From contig LFRS01000168.1 of the NCBI GenBank assembly GCA_001512435.1, positions 1-44,769 on the forward strand: DNA of 44,769 nucleotides. The letters are read 5' to 3'. The translations under genes were made by a program, and so were the position numbers. Each line of letters opens with the position of its first letter. Positions within the stretch are counted from its first letter, which is position 1. Shown here piece by piece: positions 17,001 through 34,482 of this stretch. Below the pieces are notes generated by a model, which ran no database searches, was not told where the DNA came from, and was given only the letters and a program-made list of their open reading frames with translations. The stretch is from Halothermothrix sp. DTU029. GTDB lineage: Bacteria > Bacillota > Halanaerobiia > Halanaerobiales > DTU029.

Positions 17001-17179
17001 AAGAGGAGTTTCAGCACCACATTTATAGGGATATCCTTGACAATAATCAAATCTGTGAGCTGAAACAAAAAACTGCTCAATCCGATAACTGTTACTATGG
17101 CTACCCCGGCCAGATATGGAAGCAAGACCTCTTTCATGATGTAGATATCTATTATCCTGTTTCGCCAAAATCTATACAT
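14033..17179 (-). CDS. Fusion: LptF/G permease + LptD-like outer-membrane LPS assembly protein
   Basis: 1048 residues in one uninterrupted frame. Residues 1-370 are a complete LptF/G permease: N-terminal helices, the family motif YGMSRLNRENEFTALRLGGIS, a periplasmic beta region, and C-terminal helices with TPLSLSSKDSRSVSIVF. At about 375-393 comes a signal-peptide-like segment (MPFLLVFYLLISFSLSVEA, SPase I-type V-E-A). After it comes an OstA/LptA-like domain (about 394-510, FNIYSADRLTYDHEKACYEL) and then a long Tyr/Trp/Arg-rich beta-strand region to the end, as in LptD barrels. The start ATG at 17179 follows AAGGGG by nine bases; an ATG at 17239 would be at the transcription start. The two halves normally sit in different membranes, so processing is likely. 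See findings. Confidence 0.85.
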   Translation of the reverse strand: MYRFWRNRIIDIYIMKEVLLPYLAGVAIVTVIGLSSFLFQLTDLIIVKDIPINVVLKLLFYQLPYIIVQSFPIAILFATLYGMSRLNRENEFTALRLGGISLYRLILPLIILGIVISGLTYYINEEIVPWTHHEAQNIIRINILKQPLPDVQDNVFFKGPEGRLFFVNKYKQEEGLLERIIVYELPVDEDYPVIITARSARILGNKWRLEGGIIHKYNEEGELYQALLFDTMEYEIASEVENFYGEQRTTAEMNRKRLKKEIDLFQRSGINVDSLLIDYHLKLTTPLSALIFILIGTPLSLSSKDSRSVSIVFTIVIVFLYYLILSISQSFGKNGKLDPLLAAWLPNIIFGLIGLILLLGREKWQNWLDRLYRFMPFLLVFYLLISFSLSVEAETFNIYSADRLTYDHEKACYELSGEILGQYGLYHIQAETIKVMMADGTEEAHYRVDEINIDGGKLTGCDLDKPHYYLDAKEVIIYPGDYLIAKHVVFRELNGKLPLFYTPYLYISLKEREQNLILEPGYSASRGWFLKATYRYWYQDQLPGELYLDYYTISGLAGGFKQHFLYEKDLKGYLYLYGQENRTDIPGLFNWQGELRIDNNKSQWETDTFIRYINYDDYSYTNGRVNLTNRADTWSLDLRSYFLSRDYYESDHKDNKDLDFDLIFDKNLPGKWRYHLDLYRDYRYKPEEPLKQRWGGSTYLARNLGRLDYRITLERRAPTFTEAEEEDQVSYYRLPEFSLNYRPAGPWSFDFKSGRYYEDRARVEGLRSQAGINYRRTWPLYKNSSFTTEQNLSGSIYRILEDKRENNFYGEYREEEYSIFGLPYQVNYSASHNLQVPLYPGLSWNTKYTYRDYWGDSPFTFDSTIRERVDTYLRYNRGGLYINLASGYDIYNLRYLPITATLRWQIRENWNLNIGTSYNPLENTFGDFVLTNKYKAEPWEINTGLRYDLNNKMVKELDNQLIFDLEDEWYLELNSRYDYRYNELRTANLALRKVFHCRSLTFRYDYVKQEYSLEYNINLFPGQSFSLGRSRDNDFIFDLGLDELLGKE

Positions 17180-17248
17180 AGAGCCAATACCCCTTGTCAG
17201 ATAATAAGCATTTCTATAATTCCTTCTCTTTCTACACATTATTTATTA

Positions 17249-17362: not shown

Positions 17363-18991
17363 ATGAAAGCAGGTATGATTATGTATAAAATAATGAAAAA
17401 ATCCAGCATTATTATTCTGGCCCTATTATCGGTCTCATTGCTTTTGACAGGTTGTAGTAATGATAGTACAAGGCAGGAACTCTTCCAGATCAAAGGCAGG
17501 GTAGAACTGTCCACATTACCTGCAGTAATGGCAGTACAGGACCTTAGGCCAAGGCATCCTGGCCAGCCAGACCAAAGAGAAAAACTGGCCATTAATTCTG
17601 TAGAAGAAAACCTCTTCACCCTTCCACTGGAAGCAGTTCAAATAAAGGCAAGGGAATATATTGTAAAATTTAATCAGGATATTGATAGGGCTTATCTCCA
17701 GAAGGAGATTTTAAAGGGAAAGGGCCAAATACTTAACAGGCTTAGAGATAATATCTATAAAATCAGCCTGGATGATGAAAACAGGGATATAATCAAGAAA
17801 TTGGAGGAAAACCCCCTGGTTTCCTATATAGAACCAGAGTATCTGGTACATATACAGCATATCCCCAATGATCCTGGTTATGCCAAACAATGGAATCTAA
17901 AACTCCTCAATCTGGAGACAGTCTGGCAGAACTGGTCAGGCAGTAAAGATACAATAGTGGCAGTAATTGATACAGGCATCCTCCCTGGCCATCCAGACCT
18001 GGCTGGCAATATCATACCCGGTTATGATTTTATCGATGATGACAATGACCCTACAGATACCAATAAGGAATTTAGCCATGGCACCCATGTTGCCGGTATT
18101 ATCGGGGCTATGACCAATAACCAGCAAGGGATAGCGGGTATAAACTGGCAGGTCAGTATTATGCCCATCCGGGTTATTGGAAAAGAAGGAACAGGAGATT
18201 ATAGTGCCCTCATCGCCGGCATCTATTGGGCTGTAGACAATGGAGCTAATGTAATCAACCTGAGCCTGGCTGGTTCCATGGATACCATCGCCCTGAGGGA
18301 GGCCATACAATATGCTGTCCAGCACCAGGTAACAGTAGTTGCTGCTGCCGGTAATAATGGTAGTAGTCCCATCCTCTACCCGGCAAGATATCCAGAAGTT
18401 ATCAGTGTTGGAGCTGTTGGACCTACCAGGGAAAGGGCCTATTACTCCAATTATGGTCCAGAACTGGACCTGGTGGCACCGGGAGGAGATAGTAGTATCC
18501 TTACAGAAGAATATAATACTATCCTCAGTACCGCCGGCTACATGGACAATAATACAGCTGTATATCAATATACCTGGGCCCAGGGTACCTCCATGGCTGC
18601 CCCCCATGTTTCTGCTTCAGTAGCCCTCCTCTATAGTGCCGGAATTACTGATCCAGTGGAGATACAGAGGCTTCTAAGGGAAACAGCTGATGATCTGGGC
18701 AGCCCCGGACCAGATAGTTTTTACGGAGCAGGCCTGCTCAATATAAAAAGGGCCCTGGCATACACTGGCTGGTATGAGGATGATACCAGTATACTGGTCC
18801 AGGCTATTAATAAAACAAGTGGGGAAAAGAAATCCGTCTTTGTAGATCCGGTCAAAAGAAACTTCACCCTGACCCTGGCCAGAGGGCCCTGGACAATAAA
18901 AGCCAGTTATGAAAACGAAACTGGCCAATACTCTGGAGAAATAGATATCCTGGTTCCTGCTGATAAGGAGATAGTAATAAAAATCCATTAA
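17363..18991 (+). CDS. Subtilisin-family (S8) serine protease, lipoprotein
   Basis: 542 residues and the only plus-strand gene. A lipoprotein signal peptide ends in the lipobox LLTGC (Cys31). A stretch of about 70 residues (95-165, REYIVKFNQDI through YIEPEYLV) resembles the inhibitor I9 propeptide. The catalytic domain has Asp203 (VIDTGILPGHPD), His239 (HGTHVAGI), oxyanion Asn331 (AAAGNNG) and Ser410 (GTSMAAPHVSAS), so it looks active. A C-terminal domain of about 75 residues is beta-rich. It should be anchored in a membrane facing the periplasm or outside and could act on envelope proteins. The start ATG has AAAGGG just upstream. It is convergent with the small OMP gene and divergent from lptF-D, interrupting the minus-strand cluster. 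Confidence 0.92.
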   Translation: MKAGMIMYKIMKKSSIIILALLSVSLLLTGCSNDSTRQELFQIKGRVELSTLPAVMAVQDLRPRHPGQPDQREKLAINSVEENLFTLPLEAVQIKAREYIVKFNQDIDRAYLQKEILKGKGQILNRLRDNIYKISLDDENRDIIKKLEENPLVSYIEPEYLVHIQHIPNDPGYAKQWNLKLLNLETVWQNWSGSKDTIVAVIDTGILPGHPDLAGNIIPGYDFIDDDNDPTDTNKEFSHGTHVAGIIGAMTNNQQGIAGINWQVSIMPIRVIGKEGTGDYSALIAGIYWAVDNGANVINLSLAGSMDTIALREAIQYAVQHQVTVVAAAGNNGSSPILYPARYPEVISVGAVGPTRERAYYSNYGPELDLVAPGGDSSILTEEYNTILSTAGYMDNNTAVYQYTWAQGTSMAAPHVSASVALLYSAGITDPVEIQRLLRETADDLGSPGPDSFYGAGLLNIKRALAYTGWYEDDTSILVQAINKTSGEKKSVFVDPVKRNFTLTLARGPWTIKASYENETGQYSGEIDILVPADKEIVIKIH

Positions 18992-19131: not shown

Positions 19132-19728
19132 CTAGAAAAGGTAACCTATGCCCAGCCTTACCTCTTTTAAGTCTACAAAACCAAGATCCACCTTCATATT
19201 TTCCTGTAAATTCATCTGTACTCCAAAACTGACTTTACTATTCTTATATTCCCCTTTCAGATTAACAATGGGCAAAGAAGGCCTGGAACTGGTATTAATG
19301 GAAACCGGGTTTAAAATCTTATTAAAACCAATAAAGAGTCCAGCAGTACTGGCATCGGAAAAACCGATATGAGCCCGGAAACCCAGGCCTAAATCCTTGC
19401 TGGCCACAAGGTACAAATCCTCTTTCTGCAAACCTATAGCCACTGCAGGTTGTTCTGCTCCTTCCTGTACAAGGATTAATTTAGCCAGTATACCTGGCTC
19501 TGTATAATTATGGCCAAACTCTACAATCCCTCCCAGAGCCAGGGAAGGACTTACATTATATAGGCCGGAAACCTGCCGGTGGGTAGAACCAAGAAGCTCA
19601 CCAGAAATAAAGCCTTTGCCCCCTACCAAATCAGCTGTAGGGACCTCTACCAATTTATCCAGGGCTAAAACATTTATATTAATAAGTAATAAGAACAATA
19701 AGCCTAAAATAATTATATTCCTTTTCAT
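19132..19728 (-). CDS. Small predicted outer-membrane beta-barrel protein
   Basis: 198 residues, not assigned to a named family. A signal peptide (about 1-22, ending NVLA) is followed by short alternating amphipathic strands: [52 protein letters not shown]. The C-terminal strand RLGIGYLF ends in Phe, the classical BamA-recognised signal of outer-membrane barrels. It might be loosely related to YjbH-like envelope proteins ([20 protein letters not shown]). It overlaps lpxD by four bases (ATGA) and is the last gene of the tamB-bamA-lpxD operon, so it is probably co-expressed with its assembly machinery. Confidence 0.75.
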
Positions 19729-20771
19729 TCTTCCTCTTTCTCCTCCAATCGCCTGATTTTTTCCTCCAGTTCCTTTATTTTTTTCATCAGGTCAGGCAAT
19801 TTCCGGATAGCTGCCTGTTCCCTGAGGGCCGCCTTATGATCATGGGCAGGACGGCCAGAATAAAAAACCCCGGCAGGTACATCTTTAGTAACAACACTAT
19901 CACTGGCTATAACAGCCTGGTCTCCAATCCTGATATGCCCCACTACTCCTGTTTTACCAGCCAGGATAACTCTTTTACCTACTTCTGTACTGCCGGCTAT
20001 TCCAACCTGGGCAATAATTAAACAATCCGGGCCAATCTTTACATTATGGGCAATCTGTACCAGGTTATCTATCTTGCTTCCTGCCCCAATTACCGTTGGC
20101 CCACTGGCCCCCCTATCAATAGATACATTGGAACCAATCTCCACATTATCCTCTATAATCACATTACCCAGTTGAGGTATCTTATGATGGCCATCTGCAA
20201 CACTGACAAAACCATAGCCATCAGAACCAATTACTGTACCGGCATGAATAATAACATTGGAACCAATCACACTATCATACTCTACTACCACATTAGGATG
20301 AAGTACTGTATTATCACCTATCCGGCTGCCTTTACCTATAAAAACCCCTGGAGCCAGGGCAACATTATCTCCTATAACCACATCTTCTTCCACAACAACA
20401 TGGGCATGGATGGAGACATTCTTACCGATTCTGGCTTTGGGCGAGATAACAGCAGTAGGGTGTATGCCAGGGTCATAAAAGACAGCAGGAGCAAACAGGG
20501 CCGCCACCCGGGCATAGGCCAGGCGGGGATTTTTTACAGCTATAATGGTCTTCCTGCTCTCACTGATATTTTCCGGCACAATAATAGCAGCAGCCCGGGA
20601 TTTCTCTGCCTCAGCCAGATATTTTTTATCCTCAGCAAAGGTCAGGTCTTCTTCCTTGCTCTCTGCCACTCCAGCAATACCCTTTATTTTTAAGTCCGGA
20701 TCACCAATTACCCTTCCCCTTATTAATTCCGCCAATTCCCCCACAGTATAAAAGGAGCGGTCATTAGCCAT
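19725..20771 (-). CDS. lpxD: UDP-3-O-acylglucosamine N-acyltransferase LpxD
   Basis: 348 residues. An N-terminal LpxD domain ([36 protein letters not shown]) precedes a left-handed beta-helix of hexapeptide repeats ([20 protein letters not shown] on), with the catalytic-type His in [10 protein letters not shown] and the C-terminal helix ([16 protein letters not shown]). It adds the second acyl chain in lipid A synthesis, after LpxC. The start ATG at 20771 has AAGGAG about nine bases upstream and overlaps the preceding Skp-like gene's stop by eight bases. It is unlinked to lpxC-lpxA here but clustered with bamA and skp, as in Proteobacteria. Confidence 0.95.
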
Positions 20772-21216
20772 TATTGGATTCTCCTTTTTCTTTAAAATTC
20801 TCATCCAATTTTTCGCTTACCTTATCTGTTATATCCTCTCCACCATAGTAAGCGCTTTCCCTATATAAGACAATGCTGATTCCTTCCTCTTCTACCACTT
20901 CTCTGATGGCCTGGTTTAATTCTTCATTCAAGTTGTTTTCCAGTCTCTGTTTATGATCCAGATATTCCTGGGAAATCAGGTCCAGCTCTTCTTGCCCTTC
21001 TTCAGGAGAAAGCTCTGCTTCCTTCTTCAGATACTCTGCTTCCAGTCTTTGCCCTATATTCAGCAACTCTGTCTGCAATTGTTGAGCTCTTTCACTATTC
21101 TGTAAAAGGGCATCTATATCCAGTAAGGCTATCTTCCCTGTCTTCTCTTTACTACAGCCTGCCAGGGCCAGGATTATTACAACTATCAATAAGATATAGA
21201 AAGAAAACTTTTTCAT
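20764..21216 (-). CDS. Skp/OmpH-like periplasmic chaperone, lipoprotein form
   Basis: 150 residues. A lipobox (ILALAGC, Cys21) marks it as a lipoprotein. [24 protein letters not shown] and the central coiled coil match the OmpH/Skp family, ending in [27 protein letters not shown], the typical family C-terminus (YGG.DIT). Skp trimers hold unfolded outer-membrane proteins on the way to BamA. The ATG follows the previous stop directly (TAAATG). Membrane-tethered Skp is unusual compared with soluble enterobacterial Skp. Confidence 0.85.
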
Positions 21217-22182
21217 TTAATACCTCACTTCCTTTTCCAGTATCGAAAGCTCTGCTTCCAGACTAAAATACTCCTGGGAAATATCCTGAATCAGGGCTTC
21301 CAGGGTAGCCAATTCCTGCCTGCTGAAAGAGCGAATCTCCTCTACCTTTTTCTCTATCTCCTCTGCCATCTCTTTCTCCTGTTCTTCCAGATAAGACCAG
21401 ACTAGCTGCTGGTTTTTGGCCTTTTCCTCCTCCAGCTCCTTTTTTATACTATTTTCCAGTTGTTTTTGATAAGCAGCCAATTCCTCATTATATTCTGCTT
21501 CCAGTTCCCCTATTCTATTCTCCATTTCCTCTTGCAGAAGAAGCTCTTTTTCCTGGAAAGCCAGATTATACTCTTCTTCCAGCCTCTTAATTTCCTCCAG
21601 GTACCTTTCTCTTTCTTCAGCAGGTAAATCCAGTAAGTTTAATTTCAGGTCATAATTGAGTTTGGCCAGATAAAAATCCTTGACCATATCCTCTCTATAG
21701 GTAGCCAATTCTGCCAGGAAATTTTCTTCCAGTTTTCTAACTTGCTCCTGAAGTTTTTCTGTATACAATTCTTTCTTGACCAGGACCTGTTCTAAATACT
21801 CCTCTTCCTTAGTTTGCACAAATTCCTGGTATTGGCCCTCCAATTTCTCCTGGAAATTTTTCAATTCTTCCTGATATTCTGTCCTGATTTTCTCCACCTG
21901 GATTAGAATATATTCTTCTATCTCCTGCCTTCTGGCAGCCAGCAGATCCCTCTTTTCCTTTAACAGGCTTTCCTGGTAAGCCAACTCAAGCCTTTTCTCT
22001 TCCAGGTATTGGTGTATAGTCTCCCCTTTTTTCCTGATTAAGCTATTTTCTTCAATTTTTCCCATATTTATAGCAGGGGTATCTGGTACTACTACACTCT
22101 GTGAGTTAATATAGAGAAAACCCAGAGCACCAAAAATAATAAGCAATATAAGTGTTAGCAATAACCTGGGAATAACCCTCAT
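21217..22182 (-). CDS. Membrane-anchored long coiled-coil protein (envelope, unknown)
   Basis: About 321 residues. One N-terminal membrane helix (about 5-27) is followed by almost continuous coiled coil (about 50-310) very rich in Glu, Lys, Gln and Leu, with no catalytic motif. The ATG at 22182 has AGGGAGG about nine bases upstream; a GTG three codons earlier overlaps that site. It lies between two Skp-like genes in the bamA-lpxD operon and may be a much-expanded Skp relative (the tail IQDISQEYFSLEAELSILEKE has no YGG.DIT motif) or a periplasmic spacer. The role is inferred from context only. Confidence 0.7.
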   Translation of the reverse strand: MRVIPRLLLTLILLIIFGALGFLYINSQSVVVPDTPAINMGKIEENSLIRKKGETIHQYLEEKRLELAYQESLLKEKRDLLAARRQEIEEYILIQVEKIRTEYQEELKNFQEKLEGQYQEFVQTKEEEYLEQVLVKKELYTEKLQEQVRKLEENFLAELATYREDMVKDFYLAKLNYDLKLNLLDLPAEERERYLEEIKRLEEEYNLAFQEKELLLQEEMENRIGELEAEYNEELAAYQKQLENSIKKELEEEKAKNQQLVWSYLEEQEKEMAEEIEKKVEEIRSFSRQELATLEALIQDISQEYFSLEAELSILEKEVRY

Positions 22183-22218
22183 ACCAGACACCCTCCCTAT
22201 CTTTGTCTTTTACAGATC

Positions 22219-22854
22219 CTATCCTTCATTATTTTCTTGAACAGCTAAGTCATCAAGTTCTCCATTTTCCGTTTCCGCTCCGAATCCAGCAGATCCTTCA
22301 TTATTTTCTTGAACAGCTAAGTCATCAAGGCTGGCTGCTGCTTCTCCGCCAGGGTTTTCTTCTCTATTAGCACTTTCTTGCCCGGGATCATTTTCCTTAT
22401 ATTTCTCTTCAATATAATTAATCACTTCTTCAGTCAGGTCAATTCCGCCATAGATTACATTGTTCTTATCCAGTACCATTTTTAACTCTTTTTGCCCGGC
22501 CAGTTCTGCAATCTCTTTTCTAATTTTGTCGATAATATTCTGGACTAATTCCCGTTCTCTTTGAGTCAATCTGGTCTGATATTGTTCCAGCAACTCCTGT
22601 TGCTCATTTTTTGCCAGGCCTTTGGCTTTTTCCTCTAACTCTGCCTGCATGGCCTGGGCCAGCTGGTTTAATTCCTCTTCTGCTTCAACCTTTTCTGGAT
22701 GATAATTAAAGATAACCCAGAGGTCTACATAGGCAATCCGACCAGCCATATCTGACCCAAGGACAGATTCTACCGGGCTTAAAAGAAAGAATAAGCCAGT
22801 AATTAATGCCAGCATTATCACCACTACTACTGATTTAGAACTTAATAACTTCAT
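22219..22854 (-). CDS. Skp/OmpH-like periplasmic chaperone with duplicated acidic tail
   Basis: About 211 residues. A signal peptide or anchor (about 1-34) is followed by the OmpH/Skp core: RIAYVDLWVIFNYHPEKVEA, a coiled-coil middle, and LKMVLDKNNVIYGGIDLTEEVI. A low-complexity acidic tail of about 50 residues contains LDDLAVQENNEG twice. The ATG at 22854 has AAGGGGG five bases upstream. It sits directly after bamA, the usual bamA-skp-lpxD arrangement. The tail repeat is also a perfect 37-bp DNA repeat (see the repeat entries). Confidence 0.87.
   Translation of the reverse strand: MKLLSSKSVVVVIMLALITGLFFLLSPVESVLGSDMAGRIAYVDLWVIFNYHPEKVEAEEELNQLAQAMQAELEEKAKGLAKNEQQELLEQYQTRLTQRERELVQNIIDKIRKEIAELAGQKELKMVLDKNNVIYGGIDLTEEVINYIEEKYKENDPGQESANREENPGGEAAASLDDLAVQENNEGSAGFGAETENGELDDLAVQENNEG
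22221..22257 (-). repeat. 37-bp direct repeat, copy 1 (Skp tail)
   Basis: Identical over 37 bases to 22293-22329, with an offset of 72 bases (24 codons), so the frame is kept. It encodes the last LDDLAVQENNEG of the Skp-like protein and touches the stop codon. Confidence 0.95.
22293..22329 (-). repeat. 37-bp direct repeat, copy 2 (Skp tail)
   Basis: Perfect partner of 22221-22257. Synonymous sites are identical too, which suggests a recent tandem duplication or ongoing slippage. Confidence 0.95.
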
Positions 22855-22886
22855 ATTTTCCCCCTTAAATTTTCTCACTATCACCA

Positions 22887-24548
22887 TTAGAAAGTATGGC
22901 CAATGCTAAAATGAGGTTGGCCCCCACCATCTTCATTAAAGCCATAATCCAGCCTTAACTGCCCGATGGGAGTATTCATTCTAAGACCAGCACCGATGGA
23001 ATATCTAAGATCTCCCAGGTCAATACTTTCTTCTTTTTCCCAGACATTTCCGGCATCAGCAAAAACCACAGCAGTAAAATTATCAGCAATAGGAAGGCGG
23101 TATTCCAGATTTAAGAGGAGGAGAGAATCACCATAAAAGGCTCCATACTCATAACCCCTCAGGCTCTGGGAACCACCCAGGGTGTATTTCTCCAGTTGAG
23201 GCAGCTCACCTTCTCCCTTGCCTGCCTTTAAGCGTAAAGCCCAGGCATGGTTGCTCTTAAATCCTGGATAAAACCTTCTCATATCCATATTATACTTAAC
23301 AAAATTCTCAGTTCCTCCCAGGAAATTTCCAGCATATTCTATAGAAAATATATCTATTGCTCCACCAGTAGGATTAAAGGGGTGATTAGTAGTATCTCTA
23401 TCTACCTGAAAAGTTAAACTGCGCAGTGCCTTTTTTTCTATCTCCTTATCTGCCAGCCACTCCCTTTCTGTATCTTCTGCTTTAAAGGTTATTTGACCAT
23501 CCCATTCATTGATTAGATTATGGCCTAAAAGGAGGTTACCACCTCGCCGGTTTAAACTATATTCTCTATCTTCTAGTTTTCCCGTTGAAGTCCGGTCATA
23601 AAGGCCGATACCAAAGGAAGTCCTGGTACCCAGCAACCAGGGTTCATAAAAATTAATTGAGTAATTGGTTACACCCCCAAACTGCCATTGGAAGCCCAGG
23701 GTCTGGCCATTACCCAGCAGGTTCCTTTCCTGGATATCAATATAACCTAACCAACCATCCTTGGTACTATAGGTAACCCCTACTGACAGTAGGCCGGTTT
23801 TGGCTTCTGCTACCTCAATGATGATATTAGCAGTATTCTCCAGGATACTAACCCTTTCCAGTTGTGGGTTAAACTCGGCAAAGAGATTCAACCTGACCAG
23901 GTTCTGGAAGGAATTCTGCAGGACATTCATATTTAATACATCCCCAGGTTTAAATTCCAATTGCCGCAGGATAACAAAATCTTTGGTTTTCTCATTCCCC
24001 TTCAGGATAATATCATTAATATAACCTTCATTAAACCTGACTGTAAGTATACCATCATCTGAAATATGCAAATCAGTTAACATGGCCAGGATATAGCCGG
24101 CCTCCTGATATGCCTGCTCTATCTCTCTTCTGCCTTGCAAAAGGGTATTATGATTCAATACTTCACCTTTTTGGACTCCCAATAAAGATAAAATCTCTTC
24201 TTCGGAAAAAGACTCTACTCCTTCTATCAGTATATCCTTTATGACAGGATATTCAACAAGCTCAAAAATAGCCTTTAAACCACCCAGGTAAACCTCAAAA
24301 GAAACACTGGCATCCTGAAAATAACCTAGATCATAGATCCTTTGTAAATCTGCCTTTATTACCTCTTCATCCAGAGGTTTCCCTATTTCTGTCTCCAGGA
24401 GAGTCAGGATCTCTTCAGTACTAACCCGCTGGTTTCCCTCCAGCTCCAGGGCAGTTATTATATGGAAACCTTCATTTGCCAGTACCACACTATTGATTAG
24501 TAGAATAAGAAACAAAGAAACTAAAAATATCCTCCCTGCCTTTTTCAA
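22887..24548 (-). CDS. bamA: BamA/Omp85 outer-membrane protein assembly factor
   Basis: 553 residues. After a signal peptide (about 1-24) there are three POTRA-like domains: ITALELEGNQRVSTEEIL, IKDILIEGVESFSEEEIL and INDIILKGNEKTKDFVILRQ. The 16-stranded Omp85 barrel starts near 260, with the conserved LRGYEYG loop motif (L6 VRGF/Y type), FADAGNVW and the C-terminal FSIGHTF. It folds beta-barrels into the outer membrane. Three POTRAs instead of five makes it shorter than the proteobacterial protein; TamA also has three, but context (skp, lpxD) supports BamA. tamB is two genes upstream, so one Omp85 may serve both roles. Confidence 0.93.
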   Translation of the reverse strand: MKKAGRIFLVSLFLILLINSVVLANEGFHIITALELEGNQRVSTEEILTLLETEIGKPLDEEVIKADLQRIYDLGYFQDASVSFEVYLGGLKAIFELVEYPVIKDILIEGVESFSEEEILSLLGVQKGEVLNHNTLLQGRREIEQAYQEAGYILAMLTDLHISDDGILTVRFNEGYINDIILKGNEKTKDFVILRQLEFKPGDVLNMNVLQNSFQNLVRLNLFAEFNPQLERVSILENTANIIIEVAEAKTGLLSVGVTYSTKDGWLGYIDIQERNLLGNGQTLGFQWQFGGVTNYSINFYEPWLLGTRTSFGIGLYDRTSTGKLEDREYSLNRRGGNLLLGHNLINEWDGQITFKAEDTEREWLADKEIEKKALRSLTFQVDRDTTNHPFNPTGGAIDIFSIEYAGNFLGGTENFVKYNMDMRRFYPGFKSNHAWALRLKAGKGEGELPQLEKYTLGGSQSLRGYEYGAFYGDSLLLLNLEYRLPIADNFTAVVFADAGNVWEKEESIDLGDLRYSIGAGLRMNTPIGQLRLDYGFNEDGGGQPHFSIGHTF

Positions 24549-25000
24549 TCTCTAACGCCTCCCATATTATTTTCTTCCATTAAATTAATATTAATCCATT
24601 CTGGATTTCTTTCTCTCCACCCCTCATAATTTTCTCCCTGTAACCAATTCCCATAAATCAGCTTTAATTCTGTCCCTTCTTTCCTGGCCAGAATATTATC
24701 CCGATAACTGGAAAAACCAAGGGCAAAAAGCAAGATAATTACCAATAAGAAGGGAATAAATCCTTTTTTGAACCAGAAAGCCCCTGGAAGTGGCTTTTTA
24801 CGGGAAAAATAACTGTCCTCCCAGGCCTTGCGTACTTCTGCTTCAGCCAGTGACAGGTAGACCTCTCCTTCCACTATACTGCCTCTTTGAATCCTTTCTT
24901 CCGCCCTTGCTAACCAATCCCGGGCAAAGGCAATATGCTTGAGCACTCTTTTCACACTAAGTTTCTCACCTCTTCCCTTTACCCTGACCCTCTTCTTCAC
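24545..25000 (-). CDS. Small single-pass membrane protein, unknown
   Basis: 151 residues from a GTG. A basic N-terminal region with a helical stretch (HIAFARDWLARAEERIQRG...) is predicted cytoplasmic, one membrane helix lies at about 78-95 (GFIPFLLVIILLFALGF), and the acidic C-terminal tail of about 50 residues would be periplasmic. A GTG at 24955 with AGAGGTGAG upstream is an equally good start. It overlaps bamA by four bases (ATGA) and follows the sigma factor gene after a 132-base gap. The position and topology (cytoplasmic head, single helix, periplasmic tail) would suit an envelope-sensing partner of the sigma factor, but no anti-sigma motif is recognisable. Confidence 0.65.
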   Translation of the reverse strand: MKKRVRVKGRGEKLSVKRVLKHIAFARDWLARAEERIQRGSIVEGEVYLSLAEAEVRKAWEDSYFSRKKPLPGAFWFKKGFIPFLLVIILLFALGFSSYRDNILARKEGTELKLIYGNWLQGENYEGWRERNPEWININLMEENNMGGVRD

Positions 25001-25020
25001 ATCTCCTCTATTTAATATCT

Positions 25021-25048
25021 ACAGGAGCAGTGAAAAAGTGACTCCTGT
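25021..25048 (-). promoter_or_regulatory. Inverted repeat upstream of the small membrane protein/bamA genes
   Basis: A 7-bp perfect inverted repeat (ACAGGAG...CTCCTGT) with a 14-base centre lies 20 bases before the small gene's GTG. No T-run follows, so it is not a terminator. It could be an operator or an RNA hairpin near the ribosome binding site. Confidence 0.4.
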
Positions 25049-25132: not shown

Positions 25133-25717
25133 TCAACCTTCTTTTATCAACTTAGCCAGTTTGCCCCGGATACGCCTGATGGCTTTTTTCTGTAATCTAT
25201 ATAAATAGGAAAGACTGATACCCAACTCCCGGGCCAGAAGACTGGCGTTTTTGTCAGCCAGATAAATCCCCTCAATAATAGCCCTTTCCTTAAGGGGTAT
25301 TTCCTCCAGCACAGCTTTAACCCGATCAAACAAACACCTTAATTCTACTTCCCTTTCCAGATAATCATGGGAAACCTGTTTGATCTCCAGTAAAGGCCTG
25401 ATTCCTTCCTGCAAATAATCCAGAATCCGGCCCCGTATATGGTAGCTGGCAAAAGTGGCAAATTTAACACCCCGTTCCGGATCATAGGAATCCACTGCCT
25501 TAATCAGGCCAAGATTAGCCTCCTGAATCAGGTCCATCAGCACTTCCTCTCTACCGGCATATTGCCTTACTATTTTATAGACAAGGGGCTGATAGGCTTT
25601 AATCAATTCCTGCCGGGCTTCCAGAGACTCTTCTTTTTTATACAGCTCCCATAATTCCTGCTCTTCTGCCGGATTCAGGAGCCTGAATTTACAGATCTCT
25701 TTAAAATATAAATCCAT
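25133..25717 (-). CDS. Alternative RNA polymerase sigma factor (sigma-70 family)
   Basis: About 194 residues. It has a region 1.2-like start (DLYFKEICKFRLLNPAEEQE), region 2 (LVYKIVRQY, DLIQEANLGLIKAVDSYDPE and KFATFASYHIRGRILDYL, including the -10 recognition helix) and region 4 with a helix-turn-helix (ASLLARELGISLSYLYRLQKK). Region 3 is almost absent. It is longer and closer to group 3 (FliA/SigB/SigF-like) than ECF factors. The ATG at 25717 has GGAAGG eight bases upstream. It lies 18 bases after tamB and before bamA in the same direction, so it is expressed with the outer-membrane assembly genes. No anti-sigma gene is recognisable. The target promoters are unknown; the WTGCAGG-N18-GAAT sites are candidates. 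Confidence 0.88.
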   Translation of the reverse strand: MDLYFKEICKFRLLNPAEEQELWELYKKEESLEARQELIKAYQPLVYKIVRQYAGREEVLMDLIQEANLGLIKAVDSYDPERGVKFATFASYHIRGRILDYLQEGIRPLLEIKQVSHDYLEREVELRCLFDRVKAVLEEIPLKERAIIEGIYLADKNASLLARELGISLSYLYRLQKKAIRRIRGKLAKLIKEG

Positions 25718-25735
25718 AACCATGACCTTCCTAAT

Positions 25736-28700
25736 CTAAAACTCATATTTTGTTTCTAAACTAAAGGAATATTCACCTTCACCCTGCCAACTACCTTCCA
25801 GAATCATATTTTCATCAAGGAAATATTGTAATTTTAATTCCTTGCCATAATCACCGTAGGGGAGCCTCTCTTCATTACCGATTATATTTACATATTCCAG
25901 ATAAAGCCGGTCATTAAGCCTTTTTCCAAGATAAAGGGAAAGCTGGTTGGCCCAGAGCCAGTTATAGGTATCTAATTCAAACCTATCCAGCTCAAAAACC
26001 TTCCGCAGGCTTTCCTGTACATCAGTAATAAAATCTAATTGAATCTGGTTATGGAGCCAGCGGAAAAACTCCCTGTAAACTACATCCCCCAGGTTACCAG
26101 AAACAAATTCCCCCAAACCACCCTTACTGGTCAAAATAGTCAGGATCTCCTCTTCACTCAAGGGGGGAGCAGAGGTAAAGGTAGCAATCATATTATTGGC
26201 TTTTCCATTTAACTGGACATTGATTCTGGCACCACCGACATTTGTCCAGGCATTTATATTCACCTGGGGAATATATCTGTCCTTTTCTACAAAGGATTGT
26301 TCAAATTTAGCCCTCCCATTTTGCAGGAAAAACTTATTATTATAAAAATCAAAGGTCCCCTGACTACTATAGAGTTCACCAAGGAGAGCCAGTTGGCCAC
26401 TGGTATTCTGGACCTTTAGCTGGCCTTCCTGGATCAAAACATTGATATTATTATTAAGCAAATAGACATCCTCTCCAGGATAGAGTACCAGGTCATATTT
26501 CCAGTTACCTATCCCTCCCATTACTGGCCATTCAAAGGGTAAACCTACATTTAAATTATGGGTCAGGAGTTCTGCTTCGATCATAGGTTCCCTGAAGGGG
26601 CCTCTTAATAAGCCTGTAAGATCAAAATATCCCTCTACAGAACCATGGGCAAAAGGCAGATTCTGTCCCTTTAATATTAAGTCCAGATTATTGTCCCTGG
26701 CAAAGGGATTGATAATACCTTCTATTTCTACCTGCCCATTGCCGTAGTTTCCTTTTATCTTTTTCAGGCTAATATCTTCTCCCTGAAAATGCACAAAACC
26801 ATTTAAATGTCTAAAATTTTCCGGTAAACGCAGGTCCAGTTCTCCCTCTTTAAGATATAAAAGCCCCTTTATCTCTAAATCTGATCCGGTAAGGGCCAGA
26901 TCCAGTTCAAGGTCACCTGTTAGAAGGCCGGCCATATAAGGGAAAGATGAGTCCAATACAGAAAGCAATTCCAGAGGGAAACTTTGTAATTCCATATTGG
27001 CCCTGGCCCTTCCCCCTTCTCTTAGATCAATTATACCTGCCAATTGCAGGGTTTGTCCCCTGGAAATATTTAATAATTGCTGGATAGACAGCAGGCCTCC
27101 CTCCTTGACCTCCAGGCTGCCCTCAATACCCTCTATCTCCATTCCTTCAATTAAGATATTCTCCAGGCAGGTATTCAGGAAGGCCTGAATATTATTCAGG
27201 TCTCCCTTCAGATCTCCTTCCAGGGCCAGTTGGCCCCTTATGTTTGCATCAATATATTTCTCCAGAAACTTATCTATAACTATCTCCTCACCCAGAACGT
27301 GGATATCCAGGTCAGGAAAAAGGTTGCCCCTGAAGAATATCCTGCTATCCTCTTTCTCCAGGTTGATCAATTGAAAATCCAGCCAGGCTGTTAAATCTTC
27401 TAAATTTCCCCTGAGGTATCCATCACCACTGATATAATAATCTGCCAGGAAAGCTTCTTCCAGAGCAGGAGGCAGTTCCAGAAAGAACAGATCAGAAATC
27501 CGGCCATGGTCTGTATTGGCACTGAGTTCCAGATAAGGTTCCAGTAGAAAATCCTTAATCTTTCCTCTAAGCCTGTATTCCTGGTCACCATTTTGCCAGA
27601 CAATATTCTCCAGGGCAAGATCCCCGGCATAATAATAAAAACTACCCTGGACCAGGCCCAGAGCTTCCCTCTGGTAGCTCAAACTGTGAATATCCAGGCT
27701 CCCGGAAAGAGCCGGTTCCAGGAAAGAACCGCTGAGCCTTCCCTCTATATTTATTTTCCCTTCCAGGTTTTCCTTCAAAGGCTTACCAAATAAATCTGTC
27801 AGGGACAAATCCTCCAGCTTATAATCCAGGGCAAACCTGTCTCCAGAGATAATACCTCCAGCCCACATGTTGGCTTCAGCCTGCTTCAGCAGAAACTCTT
27901 CCAGTAAAAATTTATCTCTCTCTTTCTTTAACTTAAAGGCCAGCTGATCAATAAAAAGCTCCTGATTACTAATATAAAGACTGGTATTCCGGGATTTCCC
28001 CTGAATCATTATTTCCGCCTGTTCCAGGGGCCCCTTAATAGTCAAAACTGTTTCCAGGCTGCCATTTAAGGGAAGCCGGCCCAATTCTCCTCCGGCCAGA
28101 TTCAAAATAGTTTTTAGATCCAGGCCAATAGAAGAAATACTGGCATCGATAAGGGGTTTGCCAGACAAGAGGTCTATCCTGGCCATACCCTGAATAAGAT
28201 TGTCACTATAATTAAGGGCTATCTCCTCCAGGCAGATTTCTCCCTGGCTGTAATTTAAGCTTGCTGCCAGATTATCATAATGTATTCCATAGATTAAACC
28301 TTCTTCACTATAGAGAGATAAAGCTACTATAGGTGATAGGATGGTCCCCTTCACTGAACCATTAAGCCTGAGCTTTCCCTTCAAATCCGGATCAGGCTCA
28401 ATTTTCAACCCGGATTCATTCATCAGGCCAGCCAGATTCAGGGAATCACCAGCAAAGTTCAGGTTTAAATCCCCATCCCTAAGCAGGCCCAGTTCTCCAC
28501 TAAAGGCCAATTTACCCCACTGGCCCAATAATTCCCCTTCCTGCAAGAGCAGCCTCTGGCCAGTTAAATAAAAATTGCTGTTTATATGATTAAAATTATA
28601 GTCTGCAAAAGATAAAGATAAGCCTGGCTCCACTAATTCCAGTTTGCCGGAAGCCAGTAGATTTTCAAAGGCCAGGCCATGGCCAAGGAAATTAACCATA

Positions 28701-30127
28701 ATATTCAGTTTCCCTCCTATTGCCAGCCCAGGTATAGGCAAGAGGGGAGTACTGCCACTGGCCTCTAAATCCTGCAAGAGGGCAAGATCCAGGTAATGTC
28801 CTTCCAGATTAAAACTATAATTATCATTTCTATTATAAATACCGTTTATGCTTAATTGTCCCGTATCTCCCAGGATAAAATTGAGTTTATCCAGATAGAG
28901 ATTACCCTGATTATAACGTGCTTTTCCTACCAGGTTTTCCAGCTTAATATTATTAATACTACCTTCAGCCATGGATAAATCGAGATTTATAGCCATATTG
29001 GCAGGAAATCCAGCCAGGGAAATATCCAGGGCTACCATACCATCAAGGGATAGATACTCTGGCCAAAAATCAATTTCCTTTAGCTGAAATTGATTGGACT
29101 TTAAATTAGCAAAGACTTCCATCTCCTCGCCAAAGAGATCATCAACCCACCCACTTAATTTAAGGGGATTCCCATTCAGGAAAAACTCGATTCCCTCTGT
29201 ATAAAGTACCCCTCCGGTGGAATCAAAGCTGAGGGTGCCAGAAAGATTTTCCAGGTTTAGCCTTTCCTCTCTTCCCTCCTGCCAAAAAGAAAACTCCCCC
29301 CGGGTATCTTTGAAAACAAAGCTGCTATTATAACTTTCCACCAGGTCCTTATTGCCAGAGACAAAGAGTAGTGGCTTCACATCCCCCTCCAGCTTGTCTA
29401 TAGCAAGGGGCAGAAGAGCAAAATCCAGCCCTCCTGGATAGGGAGCCAAGTCAGTAAGGGCAAGATAATCACTCTCCAGGACAGCCTGCCATTGCCCACT
29501 GGCCAGGGAAAAGGTCAAGTCCAGATTATCTAGCTCCAGATCTTCCAGCTGGAATTGCTGCCAGACTAATCTATCAAGGAGCAAATTAGCGGCTAATTTA
29601 ATCTGGCAATCTTCAGGACCAGAGCTTTTTACCAGTAAATCAATATCCTCCAGTGTAAATTGATTCTGCCAGTCTATAAAAGTTAATTGACCATCATTAA
29701 CCCTGAATTGGCAGGCTGGTAATAGGGGCAGCCTGTCAATAAAGGCAAAGATATCAAAATCTCCCTCCCCCAGGTCCTTATTATTAGCTATCTCTATCAA
29801 GGGGCTTTCCAGGTTAATATAATTCAAGGCAATGGCAAAATTCCCATCACTAATAAAACTAAAAAGATTGTAGTATATATTTAGCTCAGGGGTGGAGATA
29901 GAGAAGTTTTGCTCTAATGAATTTATTTGTACATCTTTTAAAGTAATCTGGTTTACAGGCCAGAAGATAAAGCTACCTACCTCTAGCTCTATTTGATAAT
30001 TCTTCTCCAGATAGGCAAAGATCTCTTCCTCCAGATTATAAAATAAACCACGAATATTATAAATAAAAATAGAGGCCAGAATTACAAACATAAGTAATAC
30101 AATTAAAAATAAATGCTTATATCTCAT
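25736..30127 (-). CDS. tamB: TamB-like AsmA-family envelope lipid-transport protein
   Basis: 1463 residues. One N-terminal anchor (about 6-28) is followed by a very long repetitive beta-rich region typical of the TamB beta-taco groove. The C-terminal DUF490/TamB domain is recognisable (INVQLNGKANNMIATFTS, PPLSEEEILTILTSK, YLGKRLNDRLYLEY) and ends in Phe. TamB spans the periplasm and carries phospholipids to the outer membrane, with an Omp85 partner. The ATG at 30127 has GGGAGGTG five bases upstream; a longer ORF to 30193 lacks an RBS. It heads the tamB-sigma-bamA-skp-lpxD operon from a sigma-A-like promoter. Confidence 0.93.
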   Translation of the reverse strand: MRYKHLFLIVLLMFVILASIFIYNIRGLFYNLEEEIFAYLEKNYQIELEVGSFIFWPVNQITLKDVQINSLEQNFSISTPELNIYYNLFSFISDGNFAIALNYINLESPLIEIANNKDLGEGDFDIFAFIDRLPLLPACQFRVNDGQLTFIDWQNQFTLEDIDLLVKSSGPEDCQIKLAANLLLDRLVWQQFQLEDLELDNLDLTFSLASGQWQAVLESDYLALTDLAPYPGGLDFALLPLAIDKLEGDVKPLLFVSGNKDLVESYNSSFVFKDTRGEFSFWQEGREERLNLENLSGTLSFDSTGGVLYTEGIEFFLNGNPLKLSGWVDDLFGEEMEVFANLKSNQFQLKEIDFWPEYLSLDGMVALDISLAGFPANMAINLDLSMAEGSINNIKLENLVGKARYNQGNLYLDKLNFILGDTGQLSINGIYNRNDNYSFNLEGHYLDLALLQDLEASGSTPLLPIPGLAIGGKLNIMVNFLGHGLAFENLLASGKLELVEPGLSLSFADYNFNHINSNFYLTGQRLLLQEGELLGQWGKLAFSGELGLLRDGDLNLNFAGDSLNLAGLMNESGLKIEPDPDLKGKLRLNGSVKGTILSPIVALSLYSEEGLIYGIHYDNLAASLNYSQGEICLEEIALNYSDNLIQGMARIDLLSGKPLIDASISSIGLDLKTILNLAGGELGRLPLNGSLETVLTIKGPLEQAEIMIQGKSRNTSLYISNQELFIDQLAFKLKKERDKFLLEEFLLKQAEANMWAGGIISGDRFALDYKLEDLSLTDLFGKPLKENLEGKINIEGRLSGSFLEPALSGSLDIHSLSYQREALGLVQGSFYYYAGDLALENIVWQNGDQEYRLRGKIKDFLLEPYLELSANTDHGRISDLFFLELPPALEEAFLADYYISGDGYLRGNLEDLTAWLDFQLINLEKEDSRIFFRGNLFPDLDIHVLGEEIVIDKFLEKYIDANIRGQLALEGDLKGDLNNIQAFLNTCLENILIEGMEIEGIEGSLEVKEGGLLSIQQLLNISRGQTLQLAGIIDLREGGRARANMELQSFPLELLSVLDSSFPYMAGLLTGDLELDLALTGSDLEIKGLLYLKEGELDLRLPENFRHLNGFVHFQGEDISLKKIKGNYGNGQVEIEGIINPFARDNNLDLILKGQNLPFAHGSVEGYFDLTGLLRGPFREPMIEAELLTHNLNVGLPFEWPVMGGIGNWKYDLVLYPGEDVYLLNNNINVLIQEGQLKVQNTSGQLALLGELYSSQGTFDFYNNKFFLQNGRAKFEQSFVEKDRYIPQVNINAWTNVGGARINVQLNGKANNMIATFTSAPPLSEEEILTILTSKGGLGEFVSGNLGDVVYREFFRWLHNQIQLDFITDVQESLRKVFELDRFELDTYNWLWANQLSLYLGKRLNDRLYLEYVNIIGNEERLPYGDYGKELKLQYFLDENMILEGSWQGEGEYSFSLETKYEF

Positions 30128-30152
30128 CTCCTCACCTCCCTGCCACAAGTTC

Positions 30153-30181
30153 ATAATATTATATTTAACTGGCTTAATCAA
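30153..30181 (-). promoter_or_regulatory. sigma-A-like promoter for the tamB-bamA operon
   Basis: TTGATT, 17 bases, TATTAT on the minus strand, between the terminator after the S55 peptidase gene and the tamB start. Matches are four of six and five of six to the sigma-A consensus. Confidence 0.55.
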
Positions 30182-30202
30182 GTTTCTTATCATGTATTTA
30201 AT

Positions 30203-30271: not shown

Positions 30272-32086
30272 TTACACACTGCCAGGAGCAGTATTTTCTG
30301 TCACTTCTTCAATATTAAAATCGATTACAAGATTACCTTCCAGAACATAATCAGTAGCATGGATTTCTTTTATCTCCCGGTATGAATTTTGCTCCCTGAT
30401 CTTTCTATCTGAATCAGGCCTTTTTTCCTCTTTTTCTTCTGTTTCAATTACATCATCCCCAGGGCTATTCTCTCTGGCCTGTCTTTCTTCCTGATTCTCT
30501 CCTTCTTCTTCTGTTTCTTCAATTTCCTGTTCAGGAACATAATAAGCAGGATAAACCTGCAGAATCAATTCATTATTCCTGGGCCTAGCCAGGTAATCCT
30601 TAAGGATTGATTCTAAGTCTTTATAGCCTTCAACAATAGCCTGTTTGGCCTCTGCCAATTCATAATCCTCATCAGGCAGAGCCTGGTAAGAAATCCCGGT
30701 AAGCCCTCCATCAATCACCAGGCTAGCATTGCCAGGATTAATATCATCTGGCAGTTTAAAGGCAATATTCTGGACAACCGGGTCAGAACGGTAAGGTAAC
30801 AAAGTAACCTCTATCTCCAGGGTATCCCCTGCCTTAATTTTTTCATTTAAAATCCTGGCTTCCTGAATCAAGGCAACATTATCCAGATTACTGATCTCCA
30901 CATCCACTTTAATATCTATTAACTCTACCTTCTTAAAAGGATTGATATTGATGATATTCATCAATTCATATAGTTCATATAAGGCTGTAGCAGCAATATC
31001 AGATCTGCTATAAAAGACATTTTCCCTCTCCAGGCCAAGCTCAGGCAAACCCTTTCCTGTAATCTTTAGCTTAACCCGGGCAGTACCCTTACCTACTCTA
31101 TCCAGGGTAGAATCTATAGCCTGTAAAGAAACATTGGTAATCAGGGATGTCAAATAATCCTCATCTTTGATCAGCTGAACATTTACAATTTCAGATTTAT
31201 CCCGCTCCTGGTCCTTGACCTTGACCGATAAGGGAATTATTCTAGGAACCTTCTGCAGGGTTCCGGCCAGGCCTGCATTGCGGTCAACAGTAACTGAACC
31301 AATCAGCTCATCAGTTGGAGACCCTAATTTAAAAGGGCTGGAAATGCTGGGGATAATAGCATTAATATAGGCCCGGCTTAATAAATAATCCACCTCTCCC
31401 TTATTGGTAAAAGAATGCCCCAGGGCCAGTATATTTCCACCCTCCATATAGGTTAAGGTACCAATAGCGGCTATATTTACATCCCCTCTAACCAGTTGAA
31501 CAGCTACCGCACTTCCTTCCTCCAGGGCTTCCTCTGTGTCAGTTCTGGCACCTAAACCTCCACCCTGGAGAACCTGAAAGCCCAGGTTTTCAAATACCTT
31601 CCTGGTTCTCTGAAAGGCCCTGCCCTGCATCCCACTGATATATAAGGGAGTATTTAAAGGAAAACCCCGGAATCCTTTTTCACCAGTTTGGCCAGTGGAT
31701 TCCAGGAGGGCCAGCATATCTTCAATAGGTGTAATCAGGCCAAAACGGTGGTCACTTAAGGACCAGCTATAGGCAATAGCCCCGATTAATTTGCCATCAA
31801 TATAAACAGGGCTGCCACTCATCCCGGAGGCTATACCACCTATTTCCTCGATTTTTTCTCCATAAGCCCTAAACAAAATCAGGCCAGTATTTAAATCCCC
31901 CTGAATTATATCTATTATCTTAACGGGAAATTCCTCTACCTTATAACCCTGGAAAACCGTCCTGGCAACTCCTTCCATGTCTGGCTTGATTTCATTAAGT
32001 TTCATTATTGCTTTTCCCTTTGCTGCTATAGATAATACTAGAACTAAGGCTAGAACATATATAAATAATCTCCTATTAGCTTTCAA
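30272..32086 (-). CDS. SpoIVB peptidase (S55)-like envelope serine protease
   Basis: 604 residues from a TTG with AAAGGA about nine bases upstream. After a signal peptide (about 1-26) comes an S55 domain: IGGIASGMSGSPVYIDGKLI (Ser90) and later LALGHSFTNKGEVDYL (His224). In Bacillus SpoIVB the equivalent His precedes the Ser, so the motif order is reversed here, a layout I believe is shared by other non-sporulation S55-domain proteins. The middle is beta-rich, and the end is an acidic, charged low-complexity stretch (about 520-580). It lies 22 bases after mreB and before tamB, which suggests an envelope function, not necessarily sporulation. Catalytic activity is inferred. Confidence 0.8.
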   Translation of the reverse strand: MKANRRLFIYVLALVLVLSIAAKGKAIMKLNEIKPDMEGVARTVFQGYKVEEFPVKIIDIIQGDLNTGLILFRAYGEKIEEIGGIASGMSGSPVYIDGKLIGAIAYSWSLSDHRFGLITPIEDMLALLESTGQTGEKGFRGFPLNTPLYISGMQGRAFQRTRKVFENLGFQVLQGGGLGARTDTEEALEEGSAVAVQLVRGDVNIAAIGTLTYMEGGNILALGHSFTNKGEVDYLLSRAYINAIIPSISSPFKLGSPTDELIGSVTVDRNAGLAGTLQKVPRIIPLSVKVKDQERDKSEIVNVQLIKDEDYLTSLITNVSLQAIDSTLDRVGKGTARVKLKITGKGLPELGLERENVFYSRSDIAATALYELYELMNIININPFKKVELIDIKVDVEISNLDNVALIQEARILNEKIKAGDTLEIEVTLLPYRSDPVVQNIAFKLPDDINPGNASLVIDGGLTGISYQALPDEDYELAEAKQAIVEGYKDLESILKDYLARPRNNELILQVYPAYYVPEQEIEETEEEGENQEERQARENSPGDDVIETEEKEEKRPDSDRKIREQNSYREIKEIHATDYVLEGNLVIDFNIEEVTENTAPGSV

Positions 32087-33234: not shown

Positions 33235-33495
33235 CTACTGGCGTTTTTTTAGCTTTTTATACTTTTTCCTCGTTGCCTCTCCTCCCCTGATATGTCTCTC
33301 GGCCTTATTAAATTCAAGTACTTGCTTAACCCTTTTGGCCAGCTCCGGGTCCACCTTCAACAAACGCTCAGTGACATCCTTATGTATGGTACTCTTACTC
33401 ACCCCATAGACCTTTGCTGTCTGGCGAACTGTGGCTTTTGTCTCATAAATATAATTTGCGACCTCTTTCACCCGTTCCTGTATATAGTCCTTCAA
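33235..33495 (-). CDS. spoIIID: Sporulation transcription factor SpoIIID
   Basis: 86 residues. YIQERVKEVANYIYETKATV, the helix-turn-helix VRQTAKVYGVSKSTIHKDV and the C-terminal basic helix HIRGGEATRKKYKK are near-identical in pattern to Bacillus SpoIIID, a mother-cell regulator. The start is a TTG with GGGGGG seven bases upstream; a longer ORF to 33564 lacks homology in its first 23 residues. A candidate sigma-E promoter precedes it. It marks the organism as a spore former or recent descendant of one. Confidence 0.95.
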   Translation of the reverse strand: MKDYIQERVKEVANYIYETKATVRQTAKVYGVSKSTIHKDVTERLLKVDPELAKRVKQVLEFNKAERHIRGGEATRKKYKKLKKRQ

Positions 33496-33531
33496 TCTGA
33501 TTCCCCCCACATAGAAACCAATACTAATTAA

Positions 33532-33561
33532 TGTATATGCAGCCCTTTGGGGGAAATATAC
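33532..33561 (-). promoter_or_regulatory. Candidate sigma-E promoter of spoIIID
   Basis: The minus strand has GTATATT, 15 bases, CATATACA, close to the sporulation sigma-E consensus (KMATATT / CATACAMT, about 14-15 bases). Bacillus spoIIID is sigma-E dependent. The match is partial at the -10. Confidence 0.35.
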
Positions 33562-33562
33562 C

Positions 33563-33597
33563 ACAGAAAAAAATCCGGTACTTTCATACCGGAGGAT
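33563..33597 (-). terminator. Intrinsic terminator after the spoIIQ-like gene
   Basis: A perfect stem CCGGTA/TACCGG (33575-33592) with a 6-base loop, followed on the minus strand by ATTTTTTT. It overlaps the -35 region proposed for spoIIID. Confidence 0.88.
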
Positions 33598-33613
33598 AAA
33601 AGATAATTAGGAC

Positions 33614-34441
33614 TTATCTATCAAAATATGATAAAGGATCAAGAGCCCCTTCTGTATTCTTTAAAGAAAAGTAAAGAACCGGTTCAAAGGTCATCCCGCT
33701 CTCCCCTATCCGGCCAATTTCCTGCCCTTTAGCAACCTGGCTGCCAGGGGAAACTGTTGCCCTCTCCAGATGGCCATACTCTGTCAACCAGCCATTCTCA
33801 TGTTCGATAACCACCATTATTCCCCTATAGGCATCCTCTTCCACTAATACTACCTTACCTGCTGCTGCTGCCATCACTATATCACCGGTATTTCCTGCAA
33901 ACCCAACTCCCTCCTGGTAGCGCCAATCCTCCAGTACCGGATTATAATACCAGCCTGCAGTCTGGACCAGTTCTCCAGAAACTGGCCTAATTAATTCCAA
34001 CCCCTGCTCTCTATTATCATAGGTACTGACAGGCCGCAGGGCTTCAGTTACCACCCCTGTTATCTCCTCTTCCCCAATCTCCCTGGCCGGCTCTGCCAGA
34101 TCTTCTTCACTAATATTGATAAATTCATTGCTATCAAGAATATCATTTAAAGCAGGATAATTTAAGCTAAAATTACCAGGTCTGGCCTGATTATTATCTC
34201 CAGCACCCTCCTCTTTTTCATAATTGAAATGGATCAGGGGGTTTTCTGGACTGAACTCCTCCCCCTTGCCCTCCTGCACATTCCTATAGAAGAAGAAGCC
34301 CCCGGTCAGGAGAACCAGTAATAAAACCAGAGAAAGGATATTGCGCAAGGCCCCCTTCTTCCTTAACCCTTCTCCCAGATCCTTTAATTGTAATTTTATT
34401 TTATCCCGGTCCAGTTTAAAACGAAAGCTTTTTTTATCCAT
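33614..34441 (-). CDS. SpoIIQ-like M23-fold protein (degenerate active site)
   Basis: 275 residues. A cytoplasmic basic N-terminus and one membrane helix (about 37-58) precede an M23/LytM domain at the C-terminus (VGFAGNTGDIVMAAAAGKVV, YGHLERATVSPGSQVAKGQEIGRIG, ending DPLSYF). The zinc-binding HxxxD and HxH motifs are lost (EGVGFAG and VLYFSL in their places), so it is probably not an active peptidase, as in Bacillus SpoIIQ, which pairs with SpoIIIAH across the engulfing membranes. The ATG at 34441 has AGGAGGTGG upstream, buried in a 10-bp hairpin. It lies between spoIID and spoIIID, a conserved order. Confidence 0.82.
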   Translation of the reverse strand: MDKKSFRFKLDRDKIKLQLKDLGEGLRKKGALRNILSLVLLLVLLTGGFFFYRNVQEGKGEEFSPENPLIHFNYEKEEGAGDNNQARPGNFSLNYPALNDILDSNEFINISEEDLAEPAREIGEEEITGVVTEALRPVSTYDNREQGLELIRPVSGELVQTAGWYYNPVLEDWRYQEGVGFAGNTGDIVMAAAAGKVVLVEEDAYRGIMVVIEHENGWLTEYGHLERATVSPGSQVAKGQEIGRIGESGMTFEPVLYFSLKNTEGALDPLSYFDR

Positions 34442-34449
34442 AAAAATAT

Positions 34450-34482
34450 CCACCTCCTGTCCTTATTTTTGCCAGAAGGTGG
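34450..34482 (-). promoter_or_regulatory. RNA hairpin sequestering the spoIIQ-like ribosome binding site
   Basis: On the minus strand CCACCTTCTG (34473-34482) pairs with CAGGAGGTGG (34450-34459), ten pairs with one G-T, loop 13. The 3' arm contains the entire Shine-Dalgarno of the gene starting at 34441. A T-rich tract follows the stem, so it could also act as a weak attenuator. Confidence 0.65.

Follow-up and report, generated by a model that had tools for sequence, protein, structure and literature searches.

A FliA-related sigma factor and a putative membrane-anchored partner encoded between tamB and bamA in diderm Firmicutes

Gene content of the locus

The window analyzed here, a stretch of 44,769 nucleotides from Halothermothrix sp. 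DTU029 (contig LFRS01000168.1), carries an outer-membrane gene cluster in which a sigma factor gene and the small gene that follows it, here called P2, stand between tamB and bamA. As an initial annotation had noted, the sigma factor gene lies in line with tamB, bamA, skp-like genes, and lpxD. These genes share the minus strand, and bamA overlaps the stop codon of P2 by 4 nt. The features of the locus are listed below.

30272..32086 (-), SpoIVB-like S55 peptidase, upstream of tamB (PF05580, 2.1e-11)
25736..30193 (-), tamB, upstream neighbor of the sigma factor gene (PF04357, 1.6e-21)
25133..25723 (-), sigma-70 family factor, 196 aa (Pfam, AlphaFold2, tree, synteny)
25013..25042 (-), promoter-like site GTCACT-N17-GATATTA (spacing kept in relatives)
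24545..24955 (-), P2, putative membrane-anchored anti-sigma factor, 136 aa (alignments, fold, topology)
22887..24548 (-), bamA, downstream of P2 (Omp85 and POTRA)
22219-22887, 21217-22191, and 20764-21216 (-), three skp-like genes, proposed to belong to the same operon (open reading frames, synteny)
19725..20804 (-), lpxD, putative last gene of the controlled operon (open reading frame, synteny)

The S55 peptidase carries a GMSGSP motif and was encoded directly upstream of tamB in most of the Halanaerobiales-order loci read, as well as in three genomes from elsewhere (G186, G228, and G177); across the loci of the order, its gene was found with or without the sigma-P2 pair. In Veillonella parvula, a SpoIVB-domain protein, Vpar_0521, has been reported from the outer-membrane proteome (PMC5491611). 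Beside mreB and the outer-membrane cluster stand three further genes (33235-35443, -): spoIIID, spoIID, and one for a spoIIQ-like M23 peptidase. On the opposite strand within the cluster is an open reading frame for a subtilisin-like serine protease (17363-18991, +), near whose place a plus-strand frame of 525-595 aa also occurs in loci L086, L087, L088, and L090. A single 1068-aa frame (14033-17239, -) apparently joins an LptG-like permease to an LptD-like beta-barrel, and a 785-aa membrane protein (10877-13234, -) and an ABC ATPase (10106-10843, -) adjoin lpxC, the same two genes also being found beside lpxC in L082.

A sigma-70 family protein related to FliA

The sigma factor had been described as a complete sigma-70 protein with regions 1.2, 2, and 4, a description on which Pfam and AlphaFold2 agree. 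Pfam placed region 1.2 at residues 3-24 (22.6 bits against a cut-off of 22), region 2 (PF04542) at residues 40-105 (73 bits, 1.7e-20), and region 4 (PF04545) at residues 139-186 (24.1 bits, exactly at the cut-off of 24.1), and found no region 3; TIGR02937 scored 100.9 bits against a cut-off of 42.9. With regions 2 and 4 both reaching curated cut-offs, the protein belongs to the sigma-70 family. Its AlphaFold2 model, built with 22 relatives (mean pLDDT of 86), consists of two helix blocks (residues 2-107 and 119-195) joined by a short, low-confidence link with no domain between them. Values of dN/dS were 0.09-0.17 for the sigma factor gene and, close to these, 0.07-0.13 for bamA; the sigma factor gene is thus under purifying selection.

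When the sigma factor was placed in a tree with known sigma factors, the 26 members analyzed formed one clade (support 90/97) that was sister to FliA (84/92) and separate from both RpoD and the sporulation sigma factors, outside the SigE/F/G/K clade. Membership in the FliA/WhiG (sigma-28) family itself was rejected, since the protein has no region 3 and falls far below the family cut-off. The window's own genome carries a separate FliA-like gene. Membership in the ECF group (group 4) was likewise rejected: region 1.2 is present, and the single ECF row in the tree is far off, on a long branch.

Conserved gene order and distribution of the sigma-P2 pair

The order tamB-sigma-P2-bamA was found in all 46 sigma-bearing genomes read (8 from the window's order, 18 from a phylum sample, and 20 from a single class), such that the position seen in the window holds even in genomes far outside its order. 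Within the order, full-length sigma orthologues occurred in 8 of 38 genomes, namely, 7 of the 8 genomes of the window's own family and 1 of another family. P2 was found in the same eight (two further marginal matches, with E values of 0.006-0.008, were disregarded), and bamA was found in 36 of the 38. In G002, one of the eight carriers, the tamB-bamA junction is divided between two contigs. Order genomes read without the pair had bamA directly after tamB; in G007, the genome of the window's family that is without the pair, the two genes are 232 bases apart (L086, about 11112-11343), perhaps a trace of the pair's loss. A scan of named genomes with P2 gave matches only in four uncultured Halanaerobiales MAGs.

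In the phylum sample of 299 genomes, with the sigma factor called at 160 bits or more, it was present in 19 of 60 TamB-bearing genomes and in none of the 239 TamB-less ones. Three more matches near 91 bits were other sigma factors, and the one of these placed in the tree joined SigK. A profile search recovered P2 in all of these carriers but one (18 of 19); in that one, G235, it was identified from its position. In all 18 carriers other than the window's own genome, the pair lay between tamB and bamA; a roughly 3-kb insertion parts the two genes in G186, with gene order kept. The 32 TamB-bearing genomes without the pair that were read had tamB directly before bamA. Apart from the two disregarded matches, P2 was never found without the sigma factor, and bamA and tamB were often found without it; because 41 of the 60 TamB-bearing genomes of the phylum sample are without the pair, it is dispensable.

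The pair was widespread in the class of G180, where the sigma factor was identified in 83 of 97 genera (233 of 300 genomes), and the order TamB-sigma-P2-BamA was seen at all 20 further loci read. We infer that this class is Negativicutes, based on its TolC-TamB order (OEP domain), an arrangement reported to be conserved in all Negativicutes (PMC10665443), and on SpoIVA being absent from its sampled members. The gene after bamA at 19 of these loci (the contig of the twentieth ends in bamA) is, judging by its position, presumably OmpM; Pfam gave no match for it. Veillonella parvula appears to be without the pair, its tamB (Vpar_0526) and bamA (Vpar_0527) having consecutive locus tags (PMC5491611).

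The history of the pair appears largely to follow that of BamA. Groups within the sigma clade reappeared in the BamA tree, and pairwise distances were correlated between sigma and BamA (r of 0.74), sigma and P2 (0.60), and P2 and BamA (0.75; p of 0.0002 for each). On the BamA tree, the pair's distribution requires about 11 presence changes, against a mean of 20.9 for shuffled labels, so repeated losses must be assumed. Given one clade, a largely BamA-like phylogeny, and a single fixed position, the simplest reading is an ancestral pair that was lost repeatedly, which is more probable than transfer; this falls short of proof, as some forks are weak. A mobile cassette or a recent transfer of the pair is disfavored by the congruence with BamA.

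P2 is a predicted single-pass membrane protein

The initial annotation had also proposed that the next gene encodes a single-pass membrane protein with a cytoplasmic head and an outside tail, and the topology predictions fit: there is one hydrophobic helix, and in most homologues lysine and arginine are commoner before it than after it. Its length needed revision. The open reading frame first reported begins at 25000 and gives 151 residues, yet the protein is probably 136 aa long, as the GTG at 24955 fits the relatives better. Translation most likely starts at that GTG because relatives share the ribosome-binding site and the start there, and because a start at 25000 would lie only 12 nt past the promoter-like -10 element, leaving almost no leader.

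The predicted layout comprises a cytoplasmic helical hairpin (residues 1-53), a transmembrane helix at about residues 65-83, and the outside tail. The N-terminal 50 residues are modeled as a helical hairpin with pLDDT above 90 and form the conserved part of the protein, with A, W-L, A-E, G-E-L, and A-E-x-E kept in the alignments. The tail is short in members of the window's order, ending near ELKL...LIN; outside the order, it is a long linker rich in P, A, and E. A short, conserved, helix-like C-terminal motif occurred in 14 of 18 of these long homologues, where shuffled sequences gave a mean of 0.45 and a maximum of 3.

That the protein bears no recognized motif was borne out, as searches of Pfam and NCBIfam with 22 P2 homologues, and of PDB sequences, gave nothing convincing, and a fold search returned generic hairpins only (E above 1). 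RseA family domains in particular were not convincingly found among these 22 homologues in Pfam or NCBIfam. The c-di-GMP motif E(X)3S(X)2R(X)3Q(X)3D was absent from 26 of 26 P2 sequences, and the zinc anti-sigma motif HxxxCxxC was not found, the window's P2 having no cysteine.

A conserved promoter-like site precedes P2

The spacer between the sigma factor gene and P2 contains a promoter-like site 57 nt upstream of the P2 start. The block GTCACT-N17-GATATTA recurred with identical spacing in 8 of 8 Halanaerobiales-order loci, and the consensus, GTCA-N19-GATATTA in the window and RYCA-N19-GAYTATA in Negativicutes-like genomes, keeps the same spacing across both. The shorter pattern GTC-N20-GATA was present in 6 of 6 genus-level spacers; taken alone it is moderate evidence, since 2 of 300 shuffled sets reached 6 for some pattern. 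G186, held out of the matrix, scored 19.2 of 22.3 bits at the expected position; the highest score across 426 kb of loci that do not carry the pair was 17.8. A -10 element GAYTATA/GATTGTA was recurrent in Negativicutes-like genomes, with RYCA exactly 23 nt upstream at 10 of 31 sites and hardly ever at another distance, a pattern first noticed by eye, so that this count describes it and is no test of it. The site was weak or missing in f35, f42, G252, and several others; in family f35 (G143, G232, and G062), the spacer is only 20-50 bp and has no site. Beside the promoter-like site, no other conserved site was found.

The initial annotation had proposed that the sigma factor's regulon would include envelope genes. 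The conserved putative promoter before P2-bamA is in line with this; a wider envelope regulon was not found. In the window's own genome, strict site patterns gave 3-4 matches, below the reversed-pattern control and with no enrichment; apart from the site before P2, only one of these was intergenic, the rest lying within reading frames. A relaxed pattern did no better. A regulon beyond the P2-bamA operon is therefore unsupported, and the best reading of these sequences is that the sigma factor's target would be narrow and self-contained.

A proposed circuit for outer-membrane assembly

We consider it probable that P2 is the cognate anti-sigma factor of this sigma factor, that the two are devoted to outer-membrane assembly, and that they autoregulate the P2-bamA-skp-lpxD operon. 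This reading is based on the gene identities, the conserved order, the co-occurrence, the topology prediction, and the conserved promoter-like site; co-occurrence and fitting topology also speak for the earlier suggestion that the next gene encodes the sigma factor's partner. Points against it are the absence of the pair from many diderm genomes, the f35 spacers that have no site, the want of genome-wide enrichment of the site, and the lack of likeness between P2 and any known anti-sigma factor. The sigma factor would bring RNA polymerase to the putative promoter just upstream of P2 and so drive the operon from P2 through bamA and the skp genes to lpxD. From its anchor in the inner membrane, P2 would bind and inhibit the sigma factor through its cytoplasmic hairpin, its outside tail would sense the condition of the envelope or the BAM/TAM machinery, and the sigma factor would be freed upon demand for more assembly capacity. 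Since P2 comes first in the operon, that release would also yield more inhibitor and close a feedback loop. The S55 peptidase encoded upstream of tamB could cut P2, which is speculation, as the peptidase is present regardless of the pair. A bolder version, which we regard as rather unlikely, holds that the Firmicutes ancestrally had the pair as an outer-membrane stress system, which was lost along with the outer membrane in monoderms, and that P2 reads envelope state directly: the short C-terminal helix on its flexible outside linker would dock onto TamB, BamA, or another envelope part, undocking freeing the sigma factor with no RseA-type protease cascade.

The same genes could be read differently. 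P2 might be a positive partner or a BAM/TAM accessory, recruiting the sigma factor to the membrane or tethering the cytoplasm to the outer membrane: outside the window's order, its P/A/E-rich linker and C-terminal helix (14 of 18) resemble a spanning tether, and it matches no anti-sigma family. Against this reading, P2 never occurs without the sigma factor, though bamA and tamB often do, and we hold it to be unlikely. Still less likely, in our judgment, is that the sigma factor serves other genes, its placement reflecting genome economy, and that the site upstream of P2 is read by another sigma factor. The link between sigma factor and site is drawn from sequence, and some Negativicutes-like spacers also carry TATAAT near the ribosome-binding site; yet the position of the sigma factor gene is kept over great distances, and no sigma-70-type promoter was called on the coding strand of the window's spacer.

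A role in sporulation, in which a mother-cell or forespore sigma factor would tune outer-membrane synthesis during engulfment, is hardly credible. The spoIID, spoIIQ-like, spoIIID, and SpoIVB-like genes directly upstream in the window bring it to mind, as does the presence of SpoIVA in most pair carriers outside the Negativicutes-like class, but all 7 of the f39/f69 genomes with the pair have no SpoIVA, and the sigma factor groups with FliA. Identity with sigma E, F, G, or K is ruled out by the tree together with these 7 carriers.

Significance and comparison with known systems

Control of outer-membrane assembly in diderm Firmicutes appears to be unstudied. The window's cluster (lpx, lpt, tamB, bamA, and skp) is the diderm gene cluster of Negativicutes and Halanaerobiales that Antunes 2016 (PMC5007114) described in a paper whose text names no sigma factor. 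In a literature search covering mainly open-access and few subscription papers, none was found joining a sigma factor with these genes or groups, and the novelty of the pair is accordingly provisional. The presence of the pair in a large share of outer-membrane-bearing Firmicutes suggests an old, apparently undescribed control circuit for outer-membrane building. With its gene kept between tamB and bamA in deeply separated lineages, and absent from every TamB-less genome of the phylum sample, the sigma factor is a concrete candidate regulator; its putative membrane partner would represent a new family, and the pair would serve as a marker tracking outer-membrane loss.

Among characterized sigma factors, the closest clade is FliA/WhiG (sigma-28), which was also among the best profile and PDB-sequence matches; unlike its members, the sigma factor here is missing region 3 and scores 60.1 bits against a family cut-off of 189.6. 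WhiG has an anti-sigma factor, RsiG, built as a helical antiparallel pair (PMC8325347). P2 would likewise grip a WhiG-like sigma factor with two antiparallel helices, but it is membrane-bound, is without the c-di-GMP motif, and has no sequence relation to RsiG. The nearest functional likeness is to sigma-E and RseA of Escherichia coli, where the sigma-E regulon includes the rseP-bamA-skp-lpxD operon (PMC2731931) and the inhibitor RseA crosses the inner membrane once (PMC3944529). Like that system, the one proposed here combines an alternative sigma factor with a single-pass membrane protein as its putative partner, with a predicted cytoplasmic N terminus, and its candidate target is bamA-skp-lpxD. 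The two differ in that our sigma factor is of the FliA/group 3 kind, with region 1.2, and not an ECF factor, that P2 shares no family with RseA, and that the sigma and P2 genes lie inside the operon. By analogy, then, the parallel would be one of function, with parts from other families, and the pair would show a similar circuit logic, a sigma factor driving bamA-skp-lpxD, put together from unrelated parts.
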